Source of the DNA: Cystobasidium ongulense
Taxonomy: Eukaryota > Basidiomycota > Cystobasidiomycetes > Cystobasidiales > Cystobasidiaceae
Length of the DNA: 64,000 nt
Reading direction: 5' to 3'
Assembly (NCBI GenBank): GCA_022835595.1
Contig: BQUP01000009.1
Location: 620,001-684,000, forward strand
The stretch's first letter is position 1; each line of letters opens with the position of its first letter. A program made the translations under genes and the position numbers. Positions 41,781-63,168 of the stretch are shown here, one piece after another. The notes below the pieces were generated by a model that did no database searches, was not told where the DNA came from, and worked only from the letters and a program-made list of their open reading frames with translations.

Positions 41781-44071
41781 ATGACTAGACTAGCTCCAGA
41801 ATCTCTCGCCTTAGAGGGTGTGGATCGGCAGGAGATGCCATCGTCTGCTGTTGGTCCCGTGCCAATTCCGCCACGGCACTTGCAGAACATCACCACAACA
41901 CGGCTGCACCACCCCACTCCTCCTCTGTCTTCTGCTCCTTCTCCTTCTTCTCTTCTCCTTCTCTCAACATCCACTACCGATCCTTCCCTCTTCTCTTTTG
42001 ACATTGTCAGAAAATTGAATCAGGAACATCTAGCTACCATTCCTCCAAACCCTTACTCTGCCATCTCTGTTGCTCAACACCAGCAACAACAACAATCCCA
42101 ACAGGTTCGTAGATTTTGTCTTTTCTGTTTCATCTATATCCCTCTTCTCCTCTTACCTGTGCTGACCTGGCTCTTGTCACGCCCCAGAATACTGCTGCCC
42201 CCAGTTCCGCTGCATCCTGTGCTGCTGTCCTCCAACAGCAGCAACAGCAATCTTCCACAGGGCCTGCAGAGGGCTCATCGAATCACCACCCCATATCTCA
42301 GCTCAGAAGAGCATCTGCTCCTGATATAGTTTCTCCTCATCCTCCTCAGCCAGGGCTTTCAGACGAGCGCGAAGGTCCGCATTCCCGACCCTCTAGACTC
42401 AATTCGTCGCCCAATAGATCTCTTTCTTCTCACCGAAGATCACTGGACGACTTGGCTCTTCGTCGACTAGCTCACCAAAGCTCAGATCATCCCAAACAAA
42501 CTGGTCAAAAAGATAGCAACATGACAGCTACACTAGGATATGGTCCTTCTGACATGTTTGGTAGGTCTATTGGCGGCTAGTGTGGCACTCTCGTTGACAA
42601 CACTGACGACATTATTCCTTCCGTTCCTGTTCCGAAGGTCGTCGACCTACAGTTGTTCCTCAAACCCGTGAACTCTACCTCCATCCATCTCAAATATTCT
42701 CTCCCGATGGCACTTTCAACGGTGACATATCAGGATACTTCAATTCATCGCTCCAAGTCAATAACAACAGTAACAACAACGATAATAATGATGGATTAGG
42801 TATCGAATCTACTATCTCTCTACCTCCAATGCTGACTCTGGAAGAAATTATGCAACCTCACGTCTTCGCAAAAGCAGAACATGGTGATCATCGTGACAAC
42901 ATGAATACCTCGTTTTCCGATCCCACACCTGAACCATCAAGTTTTGCAGGCCATCCTGATTTCTCTGTAAGTTTGTCATACAAGTAGCCTTGTTCAATAA
43001 GTGAATACTTGCGCCCAAGCTAAAATTCGAAACTGTTCATCAATACAGAATGAGAATCACCATTCTTGGTATGGACCAGCCTCGCAGATTGATGCACGAG
43101 GTAAAGGCGTATGCTCTCGTCTTTCACTTAGCGGTCACCGAAGCTGATAATCACTTTGTTGTCCTCTCGTTTCTCTGCATGCAGGCAATGCCTACTCCAG
43201 CTATATCTCACCCAGTCAGCAACAAGGAGCCTTTGGCCCAGCTACCAATGGTCAACGCAAGCCAGGCTCACCATCACTTCAACATGCTCAAGACATTATG
43301 GCTTTCAGCGAGCGTGTTGCAATGCCGCCTATGCCTGAACCTGCACCAGGATCTCGAAGCCCTTCATCACTGTCCCCCGACTTCAAGCGTAGAGACTTCT
43401 CACCCACTAGACCAACCAGCAAAGACGGTCTTGCATCTCAAAGGAGTGATACTTCTCATGATGCACTTCCTCAGAAAAGGTCAGGCAAATTGCCTGCGTC
43501 AGGTGAGTGCTTTCTCCTTGTTTAGTAGTGTGCGATCAACGATGAAGGACTCTGAAGCTGATCAACGTCTTCTTTCACATCCAGTAACTGCTACCCTCAA
43601 AAATTGGTTGTTGGAACACACACAGCATCCATATCCGACTGAGTAAGTTTGAAGTGGCTATATTCGTGCCTTGAAGACTATGCTGACCAAGACTTGACAC
43701 ATTCTCGCAGAGAGGAGAAACGTGCACTGTGCAGCGCTACTTCCCTGACCATGAACCAAGTATCAAATTGGTTCATCAACGCTCGACGTAGAATCTTACC
43801 CCATTTGGGCAATGTTGCTATGTCTGGGAATAGAAAGCAACTCACACGATATAACCCACCTGGACCACGAAGGGTATTCACGCAGGATCATCCGCAGGCA
43901 TACCCTCCTTTCCATGCTGAGCCTGAAGGGATGTATCCACTCAATGGATCATCGATGGCATCTGCTCGAATGCGGAACCATCCGTACGCAAACTATGGCC
44001 CCCCGCCGCCGAATCCCATGCATGGCTCAATGGCAACGTACAAGTACAACTCCGAAGCGGGCCCATATTGA
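41781..44071 (+). CDS. TALE-class homeobox transcription factor
   Basis: This is a nuclear DNA-binding regulator of 604 residues. Seven exons (41781-42104, 42188-42560, 42638-42966, 43049-43100, 43185-43502, 43585-43642, 43711-44071) keep frame throughout. The N-terminal half is Pro/Ser/Thr-rich with Gln runs at the exon 1/2 junction. The homeodomain spans exons 5-7: KLPASVTATLKNWLLEH, then HPYPTEEEKRALCSATSL, then MNQVSNWFINARRRILP. WFINARRR is the recognition helix, with the three-residue loop extension (PYP) that defines TALE proteins. The C-terminus is Pro/Tyr-rich and ends EAGPY. I chose the ATG at 41781 as the first in-frame Met; the frame is open upstream without ATG. Confidence 0.9.
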
Positions 44072-45535: not shown

Positions 45536-48500
45536 TTAGAGCATCAGAGAATTCTCTTGCATTTGAGGTCTGGATATCGAACTACTATAATCACCCCTAG
45601 GTCCACGTTGTATATTGAGTCTTCTCGTAGAGTTCCTAACATGAGCTCTACCTGAAGTTGCAGAGATGGGGCTAGTAGCTATGAGATCACCAAATTGCGA
45701 AGCGGATTGATGATGATTGAACTGTTGTCCGCCCGTCCCTGCTGATGTTGATGGTGCATATGGTGCTGCAGTAGTAGCAGTAGAAGGAGAGAAAGCTCTT
45801 CCAAATCCATCACTAAATCTCCACCAAGAATTTCTAACTTGATCTGGATCAACAGAATTGAAGTCAATACTTGAACTTCTTCCAGAGGTATTATTATTAT
45901 TGTGATGACGATGTTGAGAAGCATTCCTTCTTGGTCCTGTCCAATGTTGTTGTTGATAACCACTTCCATCACTGGAATGAGTAAAAGCAGAAGACCCATG
46001 TGAATGATCTGATCCTGATCTATCTGAAGAAGAAGCATCTGAATAACCACTTATACGGAATGGATTCTGCTGATGATCTTCAGAATGTTGACGTTGCGAT
46101 CGCTGTGTAGCATATAGAGGTTGTCCAGTTGCGAATCCGTAAACTCTTGAAAGAGCGCTGGTACGATGAGCTGATTGGGAAGGTGGCATGTATACGTTTC
46201 TTGATTGACCATGCTGAGACATCATCGGAGGTTGTTGTTGCTGAGATCCAGAATTATGATGATTATAGCTCTGACTATCACCTCTATCACCTTGAAGCTG
46301 GAATCCTCTTAGATTATTCTGCATTTGAGGAGTTCTCATAGCTGAAGATCCTTTACTATTTTTTCTAGCTGCTTTTATAGCAAAGAAAGCTAATAAGCCC
46401 AATAAGAAAACTCCAATAGAAGTGACTACAGCAATAATAATAGTTTTCTTCTTTTCACTTGAACTAGTATTCGAGGTACTTGCCAAATCTGCATTTGCAA
46501 GATTACTAGAATCAACAGCGGTGTTTGAAACACCTTGTTGAGCGTATGCAGTGATTGGTAAAGTAGGATTAACTACTTTAGCTAATTGAGCAGCTATACC
46601 AGAAGATTTTGTATAAAAAGCAGAATTAGGTGCTTTAATAGCAGCTGATAGTGCATCTACGTATGAAGTAGGAACGTAACCTAAATAAACTGATAAAATA
46701 GTACCAGAAGATCCATCGTAATTATCAGGTTGATAAGCGACTAGTTTATCCGTTAACACTTGAGAAGTAGTGATATTGATAGCTGTACTAATCAAACTAG
46801 GCATGAAAGCGAATACTTGTGCAGAAGCATCTCCATTAGCACATAACCAAGACCATTTTAATTGATCATTGAATAAAATGCTAATGTAAGTATTGCCTTG
46901 TGGGACATTTGACGTACTCATCACTTGAGCATTGGTAGGAACGATGACGGAAGGCCACTCGGAAGGGAAAGGAGCGAATGAGGAAGTAGTAGATGTACTT
47001 TCATCATTTGAGGAATCTTCTCCATCGGAAGGTATGTCACTAGGTAAGACGGTACTGCTTTCTGTGGTAGTAGGTTCGGCAGAGTTGGCGAGCAAGGTTG
47101 AAGTAGGAACCCAAGCGTAAGGACTGCAGAAACAACCGAAAAGTTAGCAAGTTTCATTAGACCGACCAGAAACAGACAAACTTACTCAGAAGTACTAGTT
47201 TCGACTCGACTTTCCGTATTAATCACCTCACTTGTCGAATTGATACCAACAGTAGGAGAAGTGCTCAAAGTACCTTTATCAGAAGCGCTTGTCGTTCCGT
47301 TTCCAGTAGCGATAGGTGTAGTAGTGATAGGATCGGTAATAGTAGACGTTCCACTTGGTGACAGGATAGGAGTACTAGTGATAATTCTAGAACTTTCATA
47401 AGAAGAATGAGGAGGAACATCTGTAGTAGTACCATTTTGAGAAGTACCATCTGTTGCAGATGAACTATCCGATCCAGGTAATCGAGTACTTTCTTCCGAT
47501 CCACTGGTTGGGCTTACGTATGAAGATTCTGCAGTAGGAGTAGGAGATTGTTCTACCTGACTTGTTGATTCTCCAACACCATGTCGTGTAGTGTCAGAGG
47601 GTTGTGAAGAGATAGGTGATACACTGCTGCTATTCTCTTCTCCTCCGGATATTATAGTACTTTGATTAGATTCAGAAGGGACAGAAGAAATAGATGGATA
47701 TTCCGTTTGTCGGCTGATAGTTGATTCTTCACTAGCTGAACGAGATGGTGTTGTACTTCCAAGCAAGACGCCAGATGGAGACGAAGATTCAAATACACTA
47801 CTAACGACTGAAGATACTGCTGACTCTGAAGAAGTAGTATCATAAGTTGGCAGGGGTAGAGTCAAACTGCTCGATGAGTAAGAGGTCTCGACGCTAGTGG
47901 TGGATTCGGCAGTGCTGCTAGCTTGCACGAGTGGTGTTCTGCTTGTGATTTCTTCACTTCCACTTGAAGTAGTAGCATCGCTGCTCCTGCTTGAAGAGCT
48001 AGATTCGGTGGACGAGGAACTCTCCTCTCTGCTCGACGATGGAGAGGTAGACTCAACTGACGAGGATGACTCTTCTCTGCTTGATGATGGGGACGAGCTA
48101 GACTCGGATGCAGGCGAAGCGACAGAAGAGGGAGCTTCCGAACTTGAAGTTGGTACGGTAGAGCTCTCTTCGATAGACGACAAAGAGGACGACGACGTGG
48201 GTTCAGTGAGGGACACACTCAGACGCGTACTCGAGCTAGAGCTAGAGACAGAGCTTAAACTTGAGCTTGAGCTTGATCTTGAAGTCGAGGTGGTCTCGTC
48301 TTCTCGAGACGCCCTAGTCGAAGTGGGTACGACGGATGAAGTCGTATTTTCTTCAGACGAGCTGGAAGCTGACGATGGCCTGTTCAATGAGATGGAGCTT
48401 GAGGTTGTCCTATCCTCTGAAGACGTACGAGGTGCACTGGAGTCGGATTCCCTGCTTAGAGAGATGGAGGAGGAGCTGCTTCTGGTCGAAGTAGGTGCGC

Positions 48501-49385
48501 TCGAGGTAGGTGCAGAGCTAGAAGCCCTTTGAGACGAAGCATCTCGCGAGCTGGATGAGCTGGAAGAGCTAGCAGAGGAAGGAGAGCTCGAGCTTGCAGA
48601 TACGCTTGCTGACTGTGCTGCTGCTCCATTCAAGGGTGTCCTGCTGGATACAGCGTGTTCCGAGCTGCTCGAAGGGGATGCAGTGGGTGTAGGTACGATG
48701 TGGAGGGTGACTCGTTCGGTGACGGTGGCTGCGGGAAGAAAGCAAGAGTCAGCTCGTCAATCTACGTCTGTCCATCACGCTCTTCCATCCATCCATTCAC
48801 ATTCCCTTTCCATTTCATTCCTGTGCATTGTGTGGCGCATTGTTTGCAGCGAGGACAGGCGCGTGCGATGCCGTCGAGAGCGAGTCGCGCAGGAAAATGC
48901 CCCATCCAGACGGGGAATGGCGAGGGAAGGGTGGACAGCAGGATGGAGAGCATGCTGGATGGAGTGTGCTCACTTCGTATTCCATCCTCACTCGTCACAT
49001 AGGTCGTCGGATACACGCTCGTCGTCGATATGCTTCCCGAGGTGAGTGTGCCGCCTTGGAGGAGGACATTGACGGGAGCAGCGAGGCTGAGGACGTCGCC
49101 TTCTTCACCGAGGACATCGCTCAGCAGCTGAGGTGCTCTCTTGCGTCTCTGCTCCCGCTTGATGCGCTGGTGTCCTCGTTCAAGCTGCTGGCCGCCGTGT
49201 CCTCCTCCCTCTGCGACGCTGGCCAGTCCGACCTTGAAGGCAGCAGCGGCGAGTGCAGGGCTGAAGATGTCGTGTTCGGATCGCTGGTCGATGCTGTTGT
49301 TGCTGTTCGCTTCTGCTCGTGCACTCGCTGCCCCTCCCAGCAGGACGCATGGCAGAATGCATGCCAGCAGAATAACGCGGCGCAT
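45536..49385 (-). CDS. MSB2: Msb2-like signalling mucin
   Basis: This single-pass plasma-membrane mucin is expected to act as an osmo- or surface sensor upstream of a MAP kinase cascade. Three exons (49385 to 48992 or 48974, 48728-47186, 47123-45536) give about 1174 residues. The signal peptide is MRRVILLACILPCVLLGGAA. A Ser/Thr-dominated stretch of about 500 residues encoded by exon 2 is the mucin part. Exon 3 carries the Hkr1-Msb2-type homology domain (NTYISILFNDQLKWSW, then AQVFAFMPSLISTAINIT and TILSVYLGYVPTSYVDAL). The membrane helix TIIIAVVTSIGVFLLGLLAF follows, then a His/Gln/Ser-rich cytoplasmic tail ending ENSLML. An upstream in-frame ATG at 49445 would weaken the signal peptide. Two donors for intron 1 differ by 18 nt and both keep frame. 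Confidence 0.85.
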
Positions 49386-50551: not shown

Positions 50552-50561
50552 NNNNNNNNNN
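50552..50561. other. Assembly gap (10 N)
   Basis: Exactly ten N follow a run of 14 G (50526-50539) and an A-rich tract. The true distance across the gap is unknown; ten N is a usual placeholder. Confidence 0.98.
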
Positions 50562-50723: not shown

Positions 50724-53538
50724 TTAAAGCGAAGAATTTTTGGCAGGACCTCTTCTCTTTGGCTTTGGTGGTTCGGCTGATGGAGCCACTAAAGGAGAAG
50801 AACGGGAACCTAAAGGAGAAGAACGGGAACATCAAAAGGAGTTTGTTCATTTGTGCTATTCACTTCACTAGGTGAGGCGACGGAACATGCTGTACTCACC
50901 TCCGTGAGGACTAGGTTCAGTTCCTCTTCTCTGTGCTTGCATATTTATATTGCGCGAAGGATGGGTGTGTGCTCTCATTGTTTGTGGACTCATTGCTTGG
51001 GGTAAAGAAGGGTGAAACTGAGTGCGCCTTGGTACGGGGTCTGGGTAGCCCACGTCGGTGTATGGAGGAGAATGGACAATACCATGGGGAGATCATTAAT
51101 TTTTGCAAAGTCGTTCGAATTATGTAGGTGCAAACTCACCGTACTCTCTTGAAGCACGAGGAGAACCCTGCTGGGAGACTGAGTAGAATGTCGAGGGTGT
51201 TTGGGAGTGAGCAGGGTAGCAGCGTGCGAGATCAACGATGTCACGGTAGCATCATTAGCATGTACCAATTTGTCCGCATTGTGAAACGGACAGTACATAC
51301 CTGATTCTTCAGCTTGAAGTGTACCGTAGCCTTCCGCCTGGTAAATTGAGTTAGGGCGAGAGACTGCGAGGGGAATTAGCGTGGCAGACACGAAGAACAG
51401 AGTATCGCGATTAGACGATCCGAGTTGATGACATCCCTTTTGATACAAAGGAATGAAAGACGTGCCTAACTCACCCGATTCGAATATACCTTGAAATTCC
51501 TGGGACCGTCTATTAGTGTTTGCATATTCTGTGGAAAGATGTCGAAAACACGGAAATGGGTTGCAAAGTTGTTAGAGCGAGAGTCGGGTGTCGATGGAGG
51601 CTTAGGTGAATTAGCGACTTCACTAGCAGCCTACAATACGACAATAATGTTAAACCTACGCTGAGGGTTGACACCGTAATTGTCACCAGATGAGACAGCA
51701 GGGAAACGACCTTGTACCCCTAGATCTGGAGGATCGGAATATGTTCTCGGAGCGGAAAACATCACTCCGCCTGCTCCGACACCGGTGCCTATCAAATTTA
51801 TCAATGTACGAATTGACACACAAGATCGAATCCAGAGCGGGCAATCAGACTGCTAGACATATTTTCATCACAGGAACGCTCGCAGTCGCTTAGCTCACCC
51901 CTTATCCCAGGGATACCGGTATTGCTGCTAGTGTTGCGGTAAGCTGCCAGTGTGAAATGTACAATTTGGCAACCGACAGTGAAGTGTTTCCAGACAAGGA
52001 AGGACGAAAGTTGAGAACAGTGTAATTGTTAGTCAATGCCACCTGATCCTGCGAATGAATGTCGCCCTTCTTGCTTCCCTCATCCTACCCCGAGAGGCGT
52101 ATTTCTAGGCTCGGGGCGGCAAAGTTGACTCACCTTGAGCTATTGGGCAGTTAATACGCGTTTAATGGGAAAGTGGGTTTCGATGAACAATGTCGTGGTT
52201 TAGTGAGCACGATGAAAAATAGTGTCATGAAGCTCCGCTGACATGCTTGACCCACTTTGAATTTGTACTTTTCCAGGACGTTGGGAGTCTACGGACGCCC
52301 TCCGGCTGCCTGTACCTGGGCCTATGGAAACTTCAAAGGCGCCGAAGTTAGGGGTGCCGGGGGTTGTATCCACTATGACCAGGAGAGGAGGAATCAAAGA
52401 TTGGAAATGGTCACTTTGACTCTGTTACAGTCTGATGCGTTGACTCACGTGGGGTAGTCCGTCCAGTCAGAGGGTCTTGGTGTGAAAGAGACCCTGTGGA
52501 AAAAAAACAGAAGTCGATACGATCCGGTTTTGATCGCATTGGGACAAGGGAAAGAGACCGTGAAAGATTTTAATCGGTGTGCCAGCAACCTCGTGGAATA
52601 TTGAGGGGATAAATGACTGACATACCTGATGCAAAGTTTGTGTTAAGTCCAAGTGCTTGTGGACCGGGCTGAGTCATTCCTGGGAAGTGATCATGAGGAG
52701 CATTAGAAAAGTAAGTGTTGCCAGGAAATTGTTACTTTGTATGATAACGCTTGCACTGGACATCAAGAAAGGTGAGGGTTTGACTCACCTGGATAGCCAC
52801 CGTTAGATCCAGAACTATTAGGACGAGAGCTTAGGCGGTCGGCGCCACGACTGAGTGCGCCGGTAGGAGCCGTATACACAGGATCTTGCGAGGCTGTAAG
52901 GAACGTTTGATGACAGAGACATACGAAGGAGAGTGATTAACAAGGGAGAATCAGAGGGGAGGCGGGAGAAGGGGTTCTGTTAGGCCTACCCGCAGGTGTC
53001 CCGCCGACTACACCACATTGATCAAAGGGTAGTCAGTCTGGATGCAAAGAGACACGCGGTCATCCAAGTAAGCAGCCCTTGACTCACGATCGGTACTTCG
53101 GCCGTTTACAGGTTCGAAAATGGGCTGCGGATACGGAGACGAAAATGGGTTTATCATATTGGGTCCGATAGGACTACCCTCGTCCTTGAACGCTGCAGAA
53201 GGTGGAGCCATAATCATGGATTGGAACCGGAAAAGTTGGGAGCCGTTGGTTAGTGAAATAGCACTTGCATTGTTCATGAAGAGTTGATGCGCCTCACGGT
53301 ATTGGAAGCCTACAGTCTTCATACGTTGAAGTTGAGGGCCCTTCGGCATCCCCATAGCCGAGACTAGATTACAAAAGAAGATTAGAGACATCAGCCATCG
53401 CGGTTCGAGATCCTCGCACTACTCACCTCCGGGATTGCCGGCGCGGCTTCCTCTTTGGGTTTGGCGTCCTCCATCGCGTCTCTCGTCTCCCGAGTCTCGC
53501 TTGCCTCCTCGATCTCCAGGTGGCAAGGACCTGTTCAT
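50724..53538 (-). CDS. Disordered protein built from phase-1 micro-exons, function unknown
   Basis: I do not recognise this protein. Fifteen exons read 53538-53427, 53363-53088, 53007-52990, 52893-52789, 52679-52626, 52493-52449, 52372-52256, 52139-52134, 51943-51899, 51788-51660, 51528-51490, 51363-51301, 51178-51140, 50935-50900 and 50788-50724. They total 1149 nt, or 382 residues. All 14 introns are phase 1, and every internal exon is a multiple of three (6 to 276 nt). Exon 2 may itself hide another phase-1 intron (donor after FQY, acceptor before PFKDEG). The protein starts MNRSLPPGDRGGKRDSG, is rich in Gly, Pro, Ser, Arg and Asn, has no signal peptide, membrane helix or fold, and ends in a basic tail (KPKRRGPAKNSSL). 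The 6-nt exon and exon 11 are the weakest calls. Confidence 0.62.
50789..50830. repeat. Perfect 21-bp tandem duplication of a 3' splice site
   Basis: Two identical 21-bp units lie at the end of the last intron of the micro-exon gene. Read on the minus strand, each ends in a pyrimidine tract and TTTAG, so either AG can serve as acceptor. Because 21 is a multiple of three, both choices keep frame and differ by seven residues. Confidence 0.8.
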
Positions 53539-61115: not shown

Positions 61116-63168
61116 CTAGATTGTATATCTAAAATCAGGGGCGTTATCACCGAGTTCGTGAAGCTCTTGAATAGTGTACTTGGTTCTCTGCTCTTCAGGA
61201 AGAGACATCTGTCTTGCGTGTTCGGCATCACGCTGCTTATTCTTGCGCGTGAGGAGATATGCATATGCTGGTGCGACGATGATACCCATCATCAAAAGGC
61301 CAAGATTGACACCGTGGCCGATCCAATAGCGACCTCCTGCTGGCTTGCGATAAATATTCGAAGCGATCAGACCTAAACACAAATACGTACGATCGTCAAT
61401 TGTGAAAAATGTTGGTATTATGTACTACGAGCCTCTCGACTTACCACCGAAGTTACCGATACCAATTTCGAAGGACACACCAACAGCGCGCTTTGTCTGA
61501 CCACGAAGATTGACGGAAAGCCAAGCAACGACAGTGGGTAGGGCGGCATAAGAGCCGGAAGCGATGAGGAATTGTGCGAAATAGCGGACGCCAGATGGTG
61601 GGTACGCTAGCTGGATAACGAATCCAATGATGCACATCCACTGGTCTAGGAAAAGGAACCAGAATCTTTTTTGCCATCTATCTGCGAGAATCGAGGAAAC
61701 GAGAACCCAGATACAGGCTACCACGTAAACTGGCACTGTAAGAAGCTGGACTTGAGGTCGCGAATACGTTCCGAACGAGTTGATGATGGAACTTGGTAGA
61801 GGACAATCACATTGTCAGATGTTGCTGTAGGCTTTCTTTTCGAAAGAAAATAGTGCTCACGGAAGGAAGAGTCCAATTGAATAAAGCGGGGTTACGATAG
61901 AAATGTAGAAAGCGGTTGCCATCCATACTTGCCAGTTGAATAGACCACTGCGGATTAGGGTCCAGTTCATGCCACTGTGTTCTCCATGTGAGGTACCATC
62001 GGTCGCTTTCTTGTAAATAGTCCACTCTTTTTCTTCTTTGGTCAAGAAAGTGGAAGTCTCCGGATAATCGCTCAAGAAAAAGTATGATAATATTCCACAA
62101 AGTGTGGTGAAGATACCCTCACTGTTCAATGCGGAATCCTCGTCAGCTCACCGGTCCGGGGTCTTTAACAGGTGATTTTGATTTCGACCTACAGAATGAA
62201 AATCCAGTTCCATCCATTCTTTCCTGCGGTGCCCGACATAAATTGAATACCGTAAGCGAGCAAACCTGAAAGCTGAAATGTGAGTATGCGTCTATGGTTG
62301 TTTCAGCTGACAAGCTGGTTTATGCTGACCTGAGAATGCGCCTGCTACTGTTGCAGCTGAGAAGAAAATAGCAATTCTGAATTGCAATCTTGAGCGAGGA
62401 TACCATAGGGACAGTAGATAGGTTGCACCGGGGAAGAGTCCGGCTTCGAATACGCCAAGTAGTACTCGCATAGCAATGAGTCCGCCAAAAGTGTTGATGA
62501 GACCCATTCCTATCATAGTGATGCCGAAGAGAGTAACGATGAGTGACAGCCAGATCTTGGGTCGTAGCTTCTTTAACATGAGATTTGCAGGGACTTCGCA
62601 TAGATTGTACGAAACGAAGAACAAACCTGAGAAAGTGTGAAATGGACTTCTTTAGCTTGTTGCAATGGAACACTGAATAGATCGTCTCCCTGACCATATT
62701 GCGGTGCGGAGCGTTCATCAGGTTTTAGGGCATGACGAAGATCACGTACTGAGTGCAAGAGCGTAGTCACCCTCTGTCATATTCAAGTCCTTCTCAAGCC
62801 CAGCCAAACGAGCATTTCCAATACTGCAATTGGGTGAAGTAATCAGATTACTTGCGGGAGGAAACAAGTGGCGAATATCGCGCAAGCTTGGCAACTGTAC
62901 ACTGGACTTGCAAAACTCACTTTCCGCGATCCAAGAAGGCGACTAGGTACAATAGAGCGAGAATCCACAGAAGTTTGGCATCAATCTTTCTGTAGAGACG
63001 ATCTTCCTGCTTCGCATCGAGATGTACAGCTGGCTCATGGACAGCGTTGAAATTGTCGCCGAAATGGCCGTCGTCAGGCGGAGTTGCGAGACCAGTCTCA
63101 GCCTGACCATGGCTTGACTTTTCGACGTGCCCTAAGCCTGTGGGCTTTTCAGCAAGATGCATTGCCAT
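61116..63168 (-). CDS. MFS permease, anion:cation symporter (Dal5/Tna1-like) family
   Basis: This plasma-membrane transporter has about 12 predicted helices and likely imports an organic anion (allantoate, nicotinate, pantothenate or similar). Exon 1 carries a hydrophilic N-terminus and helix 1 ending in FLDRG, which joins NIGNARLAGLEKDLNMT across the intron; DRxNIGNAR is the ACS family signature. Further exons give FFVSYNLCEVPANLMLKKL, RVLLGVFEAGLFPGATYLL (the RxxLGxxEAGxxPG motif) and LFNWQVWMATAFY. The loop YPETSTFLTKEEKEW is also typical. Late helices include VVACIWVLVSSILADRW and GQTKRAVGVSFEIGIGNFGG. The cytoplasmic tail ends NAPDFRYTI. The substrate cannot be told from sequence alone. 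Confidence 0.9.

Follow-up and report, generated by a model that had tools for sequence, protein, structure and literature searches.

The gene at the centre of this analysis lies on the minus strand of the window (the whole 64,000-nucleotide stretch of Cystobasidium ongulense DNA that was analysed) and can be drawn as a GT–AG path of 15 exons, 14 introns and 429 codons, from a start ATG at 53538 to a stop TAA at 50724, in which every one of the 14 introns is in phase 1 (splitting a codon behind its first base) and each of the 13 internal exons has a length divisible by three. We propose, with somewhat less than even confidence, that it encodes an orphan, disordered and probably nuclear protein and that it grew via in-frame gain of symmetric exons. 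The uniform phase-1 design had been noticed in an original prediction made from this DNA, and the observation largely holds: the drawn minus-strand path agrees with the 15 exons, the 14 phase-1 GT–AG introns and the 13 symmetric internal exons, which had been described without a strand. The translation of 382 residues given at that time is replaced by one of 429, and of the small exons listed then, those of 18, 39, 45 and 6 nt are present on the drawn path and one of 36 nt is absent. All seven exons of the gene that are no longer than 60 nt are symmetric. The exons are given below, each with its posterior, defined as its share of 3000 structures sampled under relaxed site limits.

53427..53538, minus strand: exon 1, 112 nt, with ATG at 53538 and a basic, apparently disordered N-terminus, MNRSLPPGDRGGKRD; posterior 1.00
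53088..53363, minus strand: exon 2, 276 nt; posterior 1.00
52990..53007, minus strand: exon 3, an 18-nt micro-exon; posterior 0.94
52789..52893, minus strand: exon 4, 105 nt; posterior 1.00
52626..52679, minus strand: exon 5, 54 nt; posterior 0.93
52449..52493, minus strand: exon 6, 45 nt, with a 3' end like that of exon 2; posterior 0.90
52256..52372, minus strand: exon 7, 117 nt, acceptor uncertain; posterior 0.39
52134..52139, minus strand: exon 8, a 6-nt micro-exon, CTCAAG; posterior 0.73
51899..51943, minus strand: exon 9, 45 nt, uncertain, frame kept if skipped; posterior 0.38
51660..51788, minus strand: exon 10, 129 nt, with the top coding score of the gene; posterior 0.85
51475..51528, minus strand: exon 11, 54 nt; posterior 0.93
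51301..51363, minus strand: exon 12, 63 nt, in the best path of the retrained finder; posterior 0.11
51140..51178, minus strand: exon 13, 39 nt, in the best path of the retrained finder; posterior 0.13
50900..51040, minus strand: exon 14, 141 nt, with a weak acceptor (third percentile); posterior 0.07
50724..50809, minus strand: exon 15, 86 nt including the stop codon; posterior 0.85

For exon 7 an alternative acceptor at 52321 (posterior 0.36) gives an exon of 66 nt, which is likewise divisible by three. The structures come from a custom gene finder that combines three-periodic coding statistics, models of donors, acceptors and branch sites, and intron lengths, with an equal intron cost for each phase; training drew on the window and the 200 kb to its left, a total of 264 kb with 68 genes and 337 introns. 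Its first run placed start and stop at the same positions and found 13 introns, each of them in phase 1, with a single exon, 51363-51145, in place of exons 12 and 13. When the finder was retrained without the gene, the best path scored 21.5 and again had 13 introns, all in phase 1, being the drawn path minus exon 9. None of 400 dinucleotide shuffles exceeded a score of 0.09 or four introns, antisense controls (n = 28) scored at most about 3, and the full span of the gene was recovered in 89.6% of the 3000 relaxed posterior samples. The coding score is carried by exons 1, 2, 4, 5 and 10, and that of exons 3, 6–9 and 11–15 sums to about zero. By these computations this is a real protein-coding gene, with real borders and, outside the region near 51.1 kb, real phases. 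Directly downstream, a run of ten N at 50552-50561, beside a poly-G and poly-A run, marks an assembly gap.

The other genes are built differently, as had been claimed for the neighbours of this gene. In the 67 other predicted genes of the 264 kb, with 324 introns, phases 0, 1 and 2 occur 115, 114 and 95 times; 81 of 260 neighbouring intron pairs share a phase, with 33.6% expected, symmetric internal exons having the same count, and the longest run of one phase is four. These genes are without phase clustering within genes. Only 12 of their 51 internal exons of at most 60 nt are symmetric, and a gene-finder artefact was rejected as the source of small-exon symmetry on this ground. Codon or proto-splice context was rejected as a cause of phase 1 as well, since the gene's own codon and junction context predicts phase 1 for 38.5% of introns, equal to the mean of the other genes. 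The chance that 14 of 14 introns are in phase 1 is 4.5e-7 to 1.6e-6 per gene, the higher value following from the 38.5%. With an estimated 225 genes of at least 14 introns in the genome, about 1e-4 genes per genome would be expected with at least 14 introns all in phase 1, and 2e-4 with all in any single phase. If, more cautiously, 11 of 12 introns are counted, the chance is 8e-5 to 2e-4 per gene, and 0.03 to 0.08 such genes would be expected among the 374 estimated to have 12 introns or more.

There are possible traces of duplication around the splice borders, and one plain case, a tandem copy of 21 nt at the acceptor of intron 14:

50789..50830, minus strand: tandem repeat, two exact copies of 21 nt (100% identity), carrying the intron 14 acceptor

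This copy provides exon 15 with two in-frame acceptors 21 nt apart, scoring 6.3 and 5.2. Among the donor flanks, the best-matching pair is formed by the ends of exons 2 and 6, which are alike in both DNA and protein, and donors 1 and 14 are also alike. Compared with all donors, the exonic flanks gave P values of 0.004 and 0.028, but that null mixes phases, and a phase-1 null was therefore used: against phase-1 donors elsewhere the mean gives P 0.04 and the best pair 0.05, and in local alignments the mean gives P 0.02 and the best one 0.07. Pairs of exon peptides that reach P 0.01 number 2 of 91, against 0.9 expected. Taken together, the flanks suggest that splice borders of this gene may have been duplicated. 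The likeness among the intron bodies exceeds that among their own shuffles (the mean being reached in 0 of 60) but not that among introns matched for length from other genes (P 0.43 for the mean, 0.76 for the best pair). The earlier idea that the gene grew through exon duplication is weakly supported by the ends of exons 2 and 6 and finds no counterpart in the intron bodies.

A second shared feature is found at the donors, where five of the 14 introns begin with GTRRGTCAA.

53079..53087, minus strand: start of intron 2, GTGAGTCAA

The same nine bases, GTGAGTCAA, open introns 2, 4, 6 and 8, and intron 7 opens with GTGGGTCAA. Of the 14 donors here, five have CAA at positions +7 to +9, compared with 6 of 324 in the other genes (P 5.5e-6 for CAA alone, P 8.5e-4 when every trimer is considered); beyond the first nine bases, likeness among the donor regions is weak. 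Genome-wide, GTGAGTCAA occurs 199 times, four of them inside this gene, against 74 for a reversed-pattern control. Among the matches listed, which cover C1 to part of C4, C2:2914087 and C2:2915222 form the sole same-strand pair within 2 kb.

The encoded protein is an orphan in the collections searched. The whole protein shared words with 7156 candidates in the protein collection, none of which matched at E 0.001; residues 38-129 gave eight candidates, none at E 10; no Pfam domain was found in the full 429-residue protein or in the 414-residue form that lacks exon 9; and no PDB sequence matched at E 1. In the 19.77 Mb genome the locus matches only itself at E 0.001, and of 14 matches found at E 10 in a search for paralogues, 13 were the locus itself and the other was a weak match on C2 (E 0.58) with two stops, so that the gene is single-copy as far as the sensitivity of these searches reaches. 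Residues P, G, S, Q, N and T make up 54.5% of the protein, a share equalled or exceeded in 2 of the 67 other genes, and from this composition it would be mostly disordered. A single-sequence fold of exon 2 returned one long helix at low confidence (mean pLDDT 59, pTM 0.20). By reading of the translation, residues 1–40 contain no hydrophobic, signal-like stretch. The C-terminus, PPKPKRRGPAKNSSL (exon 15), resembles a nuclear localization signal and may act as one, and the protein is probably nuclear.

Since the searches gave no relative of the protein, conservation offers no view of the gene's origin or use; nor does its being an orphan tell much about its age, because close relatives seem to be poorly sampled. 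The latter impression comes from an MFS transporter at 61116-63168 (minus strand), which has 1993 matches: the closest five are unnamed proteins at 75–78%, and the best named among the 120 matches listed are mostly from Microbotryomycetes (Phenoliferia 60%, Leucosporidium 56%, Microbotryum 54%), so that the nearest named match stands at only 60%. No name from Ustilaginomycotina appears among those 120. The placement of this DNA in a smut fungus, as implied in the original prediction, is accordingly not established, although one gene is thin evidence; Microbotryum species are anther smuts, which belong to a subphylum other than Ustilaginomycotina. Elsewhere in the neighbourhood, 45536-48828 (minus strand) is predicted to encode an extremely Ser/Thr-rich protein of 1052 residues with an apparent single membrane span, which may be a surface sensor resembling mucins, and 42521-44071 (plus strand) a protein carrying a homeobox of the KN type (Pfam Homeobox_KN, E 3.4e-20).

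We propose that symmetric exons were gained repeatedly in a phase-1 setting, within a stretch of protein that would tolerate short insertions. A gained exon would be retained only if it preserved the frame, and because only such exons would be kept, each new intron would inherit phase 1. One route of gain could be in-frame tandem duplication over a splice border, of which the 21-nt copy at intron 14 is a surviving example, and another the birth of a new exon within a phase-1 intron. A gene built in this way would forgive splicing errors, as the frame would survive the skipping of any exon or use of the second acceptor of exon 15. We would expect a single dominant transcript, with the smallest exons skipped in frame at a low level, since in the basidiomycete Schizophyllum commune exon skipping makes up 1% of splicing events in coding regions, according to the available text of that study (PMC5034255). 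Both the manner of growth and the tolerance of skipping are what we infer from the score of the retrained finder, the symmetry of the small exons, the lack of phase clustering in other genes, the codon context, the disorder-like composition, the 21-nt acceptor copy, the ends of exons 2 and 6 and the CAA donors. Weighed against them were the intron bodies, the P values of the donor flanks, the small number of alike peptide pairs, the coding scores near zero and the posterior of the phase-0 intron discussed below. With a median of only 70 nt, the introns of this genome leave little space for the birth of internal exons, and the searches found no orthologue that could show the order of exon gains.

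One alternative, which we consider distinctly unlikely, is that the drawn path is right over its 5' two thirds and wrong in its 3' part, where intron 12 would be read through and followed by a phase-0 intron, making the gene near-uniform in phase. Among the relaxed samples, 589 of 3000 (19.6%) are phase 1 throughout and 2320 of 3000 contain exactly one intron of another phase; the usual cause is a read-through of intron 12, after which a phase-0 intron, 51139-51018, follows. The posterior of this intron, which moves the exon 14 acceptor to 51017, is 0.72, against 0.07 for exon 14 as drawn, whose acceptor sits in the third percentile; the read-through form of exon 12, of 224 nt, has a posterior of 0.74, and intron 12 was also read through in the first finder run, there with all phases 1. 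However, exons 1–11 have a marked composition, rich in G, S, P, R, Q and T, by which the spliced form of exons 12–14 scores +3.1 and the two read-through forms -12.5 and -10.7, and the read-through peptides introduce a cysteine into a protein that, in its 429-residue form, lacks both C and W. At normal site thresholds the best path was all phase 1 in both finder runs. Because the spliced exons 12–14 match the composition of the protein, we prefer the path that is phase 1 throughout over that with a phase-0 intron near 51.1 kb, and hold the choice open. Another explanation, somewhat unlikely in our view, is coincidence: introns may have entered phase-1 sites independently, and a scan of many genomes would occasionally meet such a gene. 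The window was preselected as remarkable by a scan of unstated size, which limits any claim from the small chance per gene. If exons of at most 60 nt are late additions within phase-1 introns, only seven junctions are independent, and with these exons set aside a genome would be expected to contain about one gene of this kind; that the intron bodies are unrelated to each other would also fit. Against coincidence are the expectation for 14 of 14 in this genome, the presence of the shared donor extension in the same gene, with its P of 8.5e-4 when any trimer is allowed, and the length of its introns, which exceeds that in other genes (P 2e-4, computed on the 13 introns that the finder drew in its first run).

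The remaining alternatives assign more to the introns themselves. It is improbable that this is a programmed isoform gene in which small symmetric exons would be regulated cassettes and the GTRRGTCAA donors would mark introns under one splicing factor. The original suggestion that exons could be skipped without loss of frame stands in principle, in that the design is symmetric and none of the 105 possible exon–exon junctions creates a stop codon. The exons that follow the five CAA introns, of 18, 54, 117, 6 and 45 nt, tend to be shorter than the others (P 0.06), the two in-frame acceptors of exon 15 offer a further choice, and a fungal micro-exon switch has been reported for Trichoderma Xlr2 (PMC11121469, available text). 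On the other hand, coding exon skipping is scarce in S. commune, as noted above, and the donors are mostly strong, 9 of 14 lying above the median of the minus-strand donors of other genes. Intron retention is ordinary: six of the 14 introns are multiples of three and one of these six is free of stops, compared with 18 of 114 elsewhere. In its fullest form, this idea would make the gene the fungal equivalent of the uniform-phase micro-exon genes of animals, with up to 13 frame-neutral cassettes in a disordered regulatory protein and, shared by five introns, a nine-base donor element that would let one factor tune inclusion, a reading that we consider more improbable still; if true, one gene would yield many isoforms in a group of fungi in which skipping of coding exons is otherwise rare. 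Introner-like elements, mobile introns that would have multiplied in the gene and brought a fixed phase with them, are very improbable indeed. The first nine bases common to five of the 14 introns are what such elements might leave, but the self-match at E 0.001 was the only one in the genome, the bodies of the introns are unrelated, and by eye the exon junctions have no evident common target sequence; this origin was rejected for the absence of near-identical intron copies at other loci.

Set beside known systems, the gene is, by the tests applied, a member of neither the schistosome MEGs nor the aphid bicycle genes. In bicycle genes, as described in the available part of PMC9168663, almost all internal exons begin at codon position 2 and there are about 17 exons on average; all 13 internal exons here start at that position, with one exception if the 3' alternative is right, and the likeness extends to the many exons and to fast-evolving proteins. 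Bicycle genes differ in forming aphid families of putative gall or salivary effectors (PMC9168663, same portion), whereas no second genome copy was found here, and the N-terminus here, by reading, is without a hydrophobic signal stretch. The bicycle classifier returned a logit of -10.1, computed with the coefficients printed in PMC9168663 and with phase 2 there taken as codon position 2. Schistosome MEGs share small symmetric exons, down to 6 nt, but the excerpt of PMC5825161 consulted places about 80% of their coding sequence in exons of 6–36 nt, compared with 1.9% in exons of at most 36 nt here, and the earlier label of a micro-exon gene was therefore too strong. According to the same excerpt, MEG products are secreted or membrane-anchored almost without exception (PMC5825161), and no signal-like start was seen here by reading. 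Among fungi, Trichoderma Xlr2 likewise contains a micro-exon, although the text available describes a single, tested micro-exon in a transcription factor (PMC11121469) and the several small exons here are predicted. The SP7-like effectors of Rhizophagus are likewise divergent fungal proteins, for which exon–intron structure has been used as evidence of common origin, and differ in being secreted, repeat-bearing and specific to Glomeromycotina, as given in the accessible part of PMC11333574. Among the matches listed from the open-licence literature, judged by titles and the starts of abstracts, no fungal gene of uniform phase is described. The uniform-phase examples considered here are animal proteins that are secreted; a fungal case that is single-copy and apparently non-secreted would suggest that in-frame gain of exons within a disordered protein can also produce the build, and with such an origin it would not be tied solely to the arms races of effectors.
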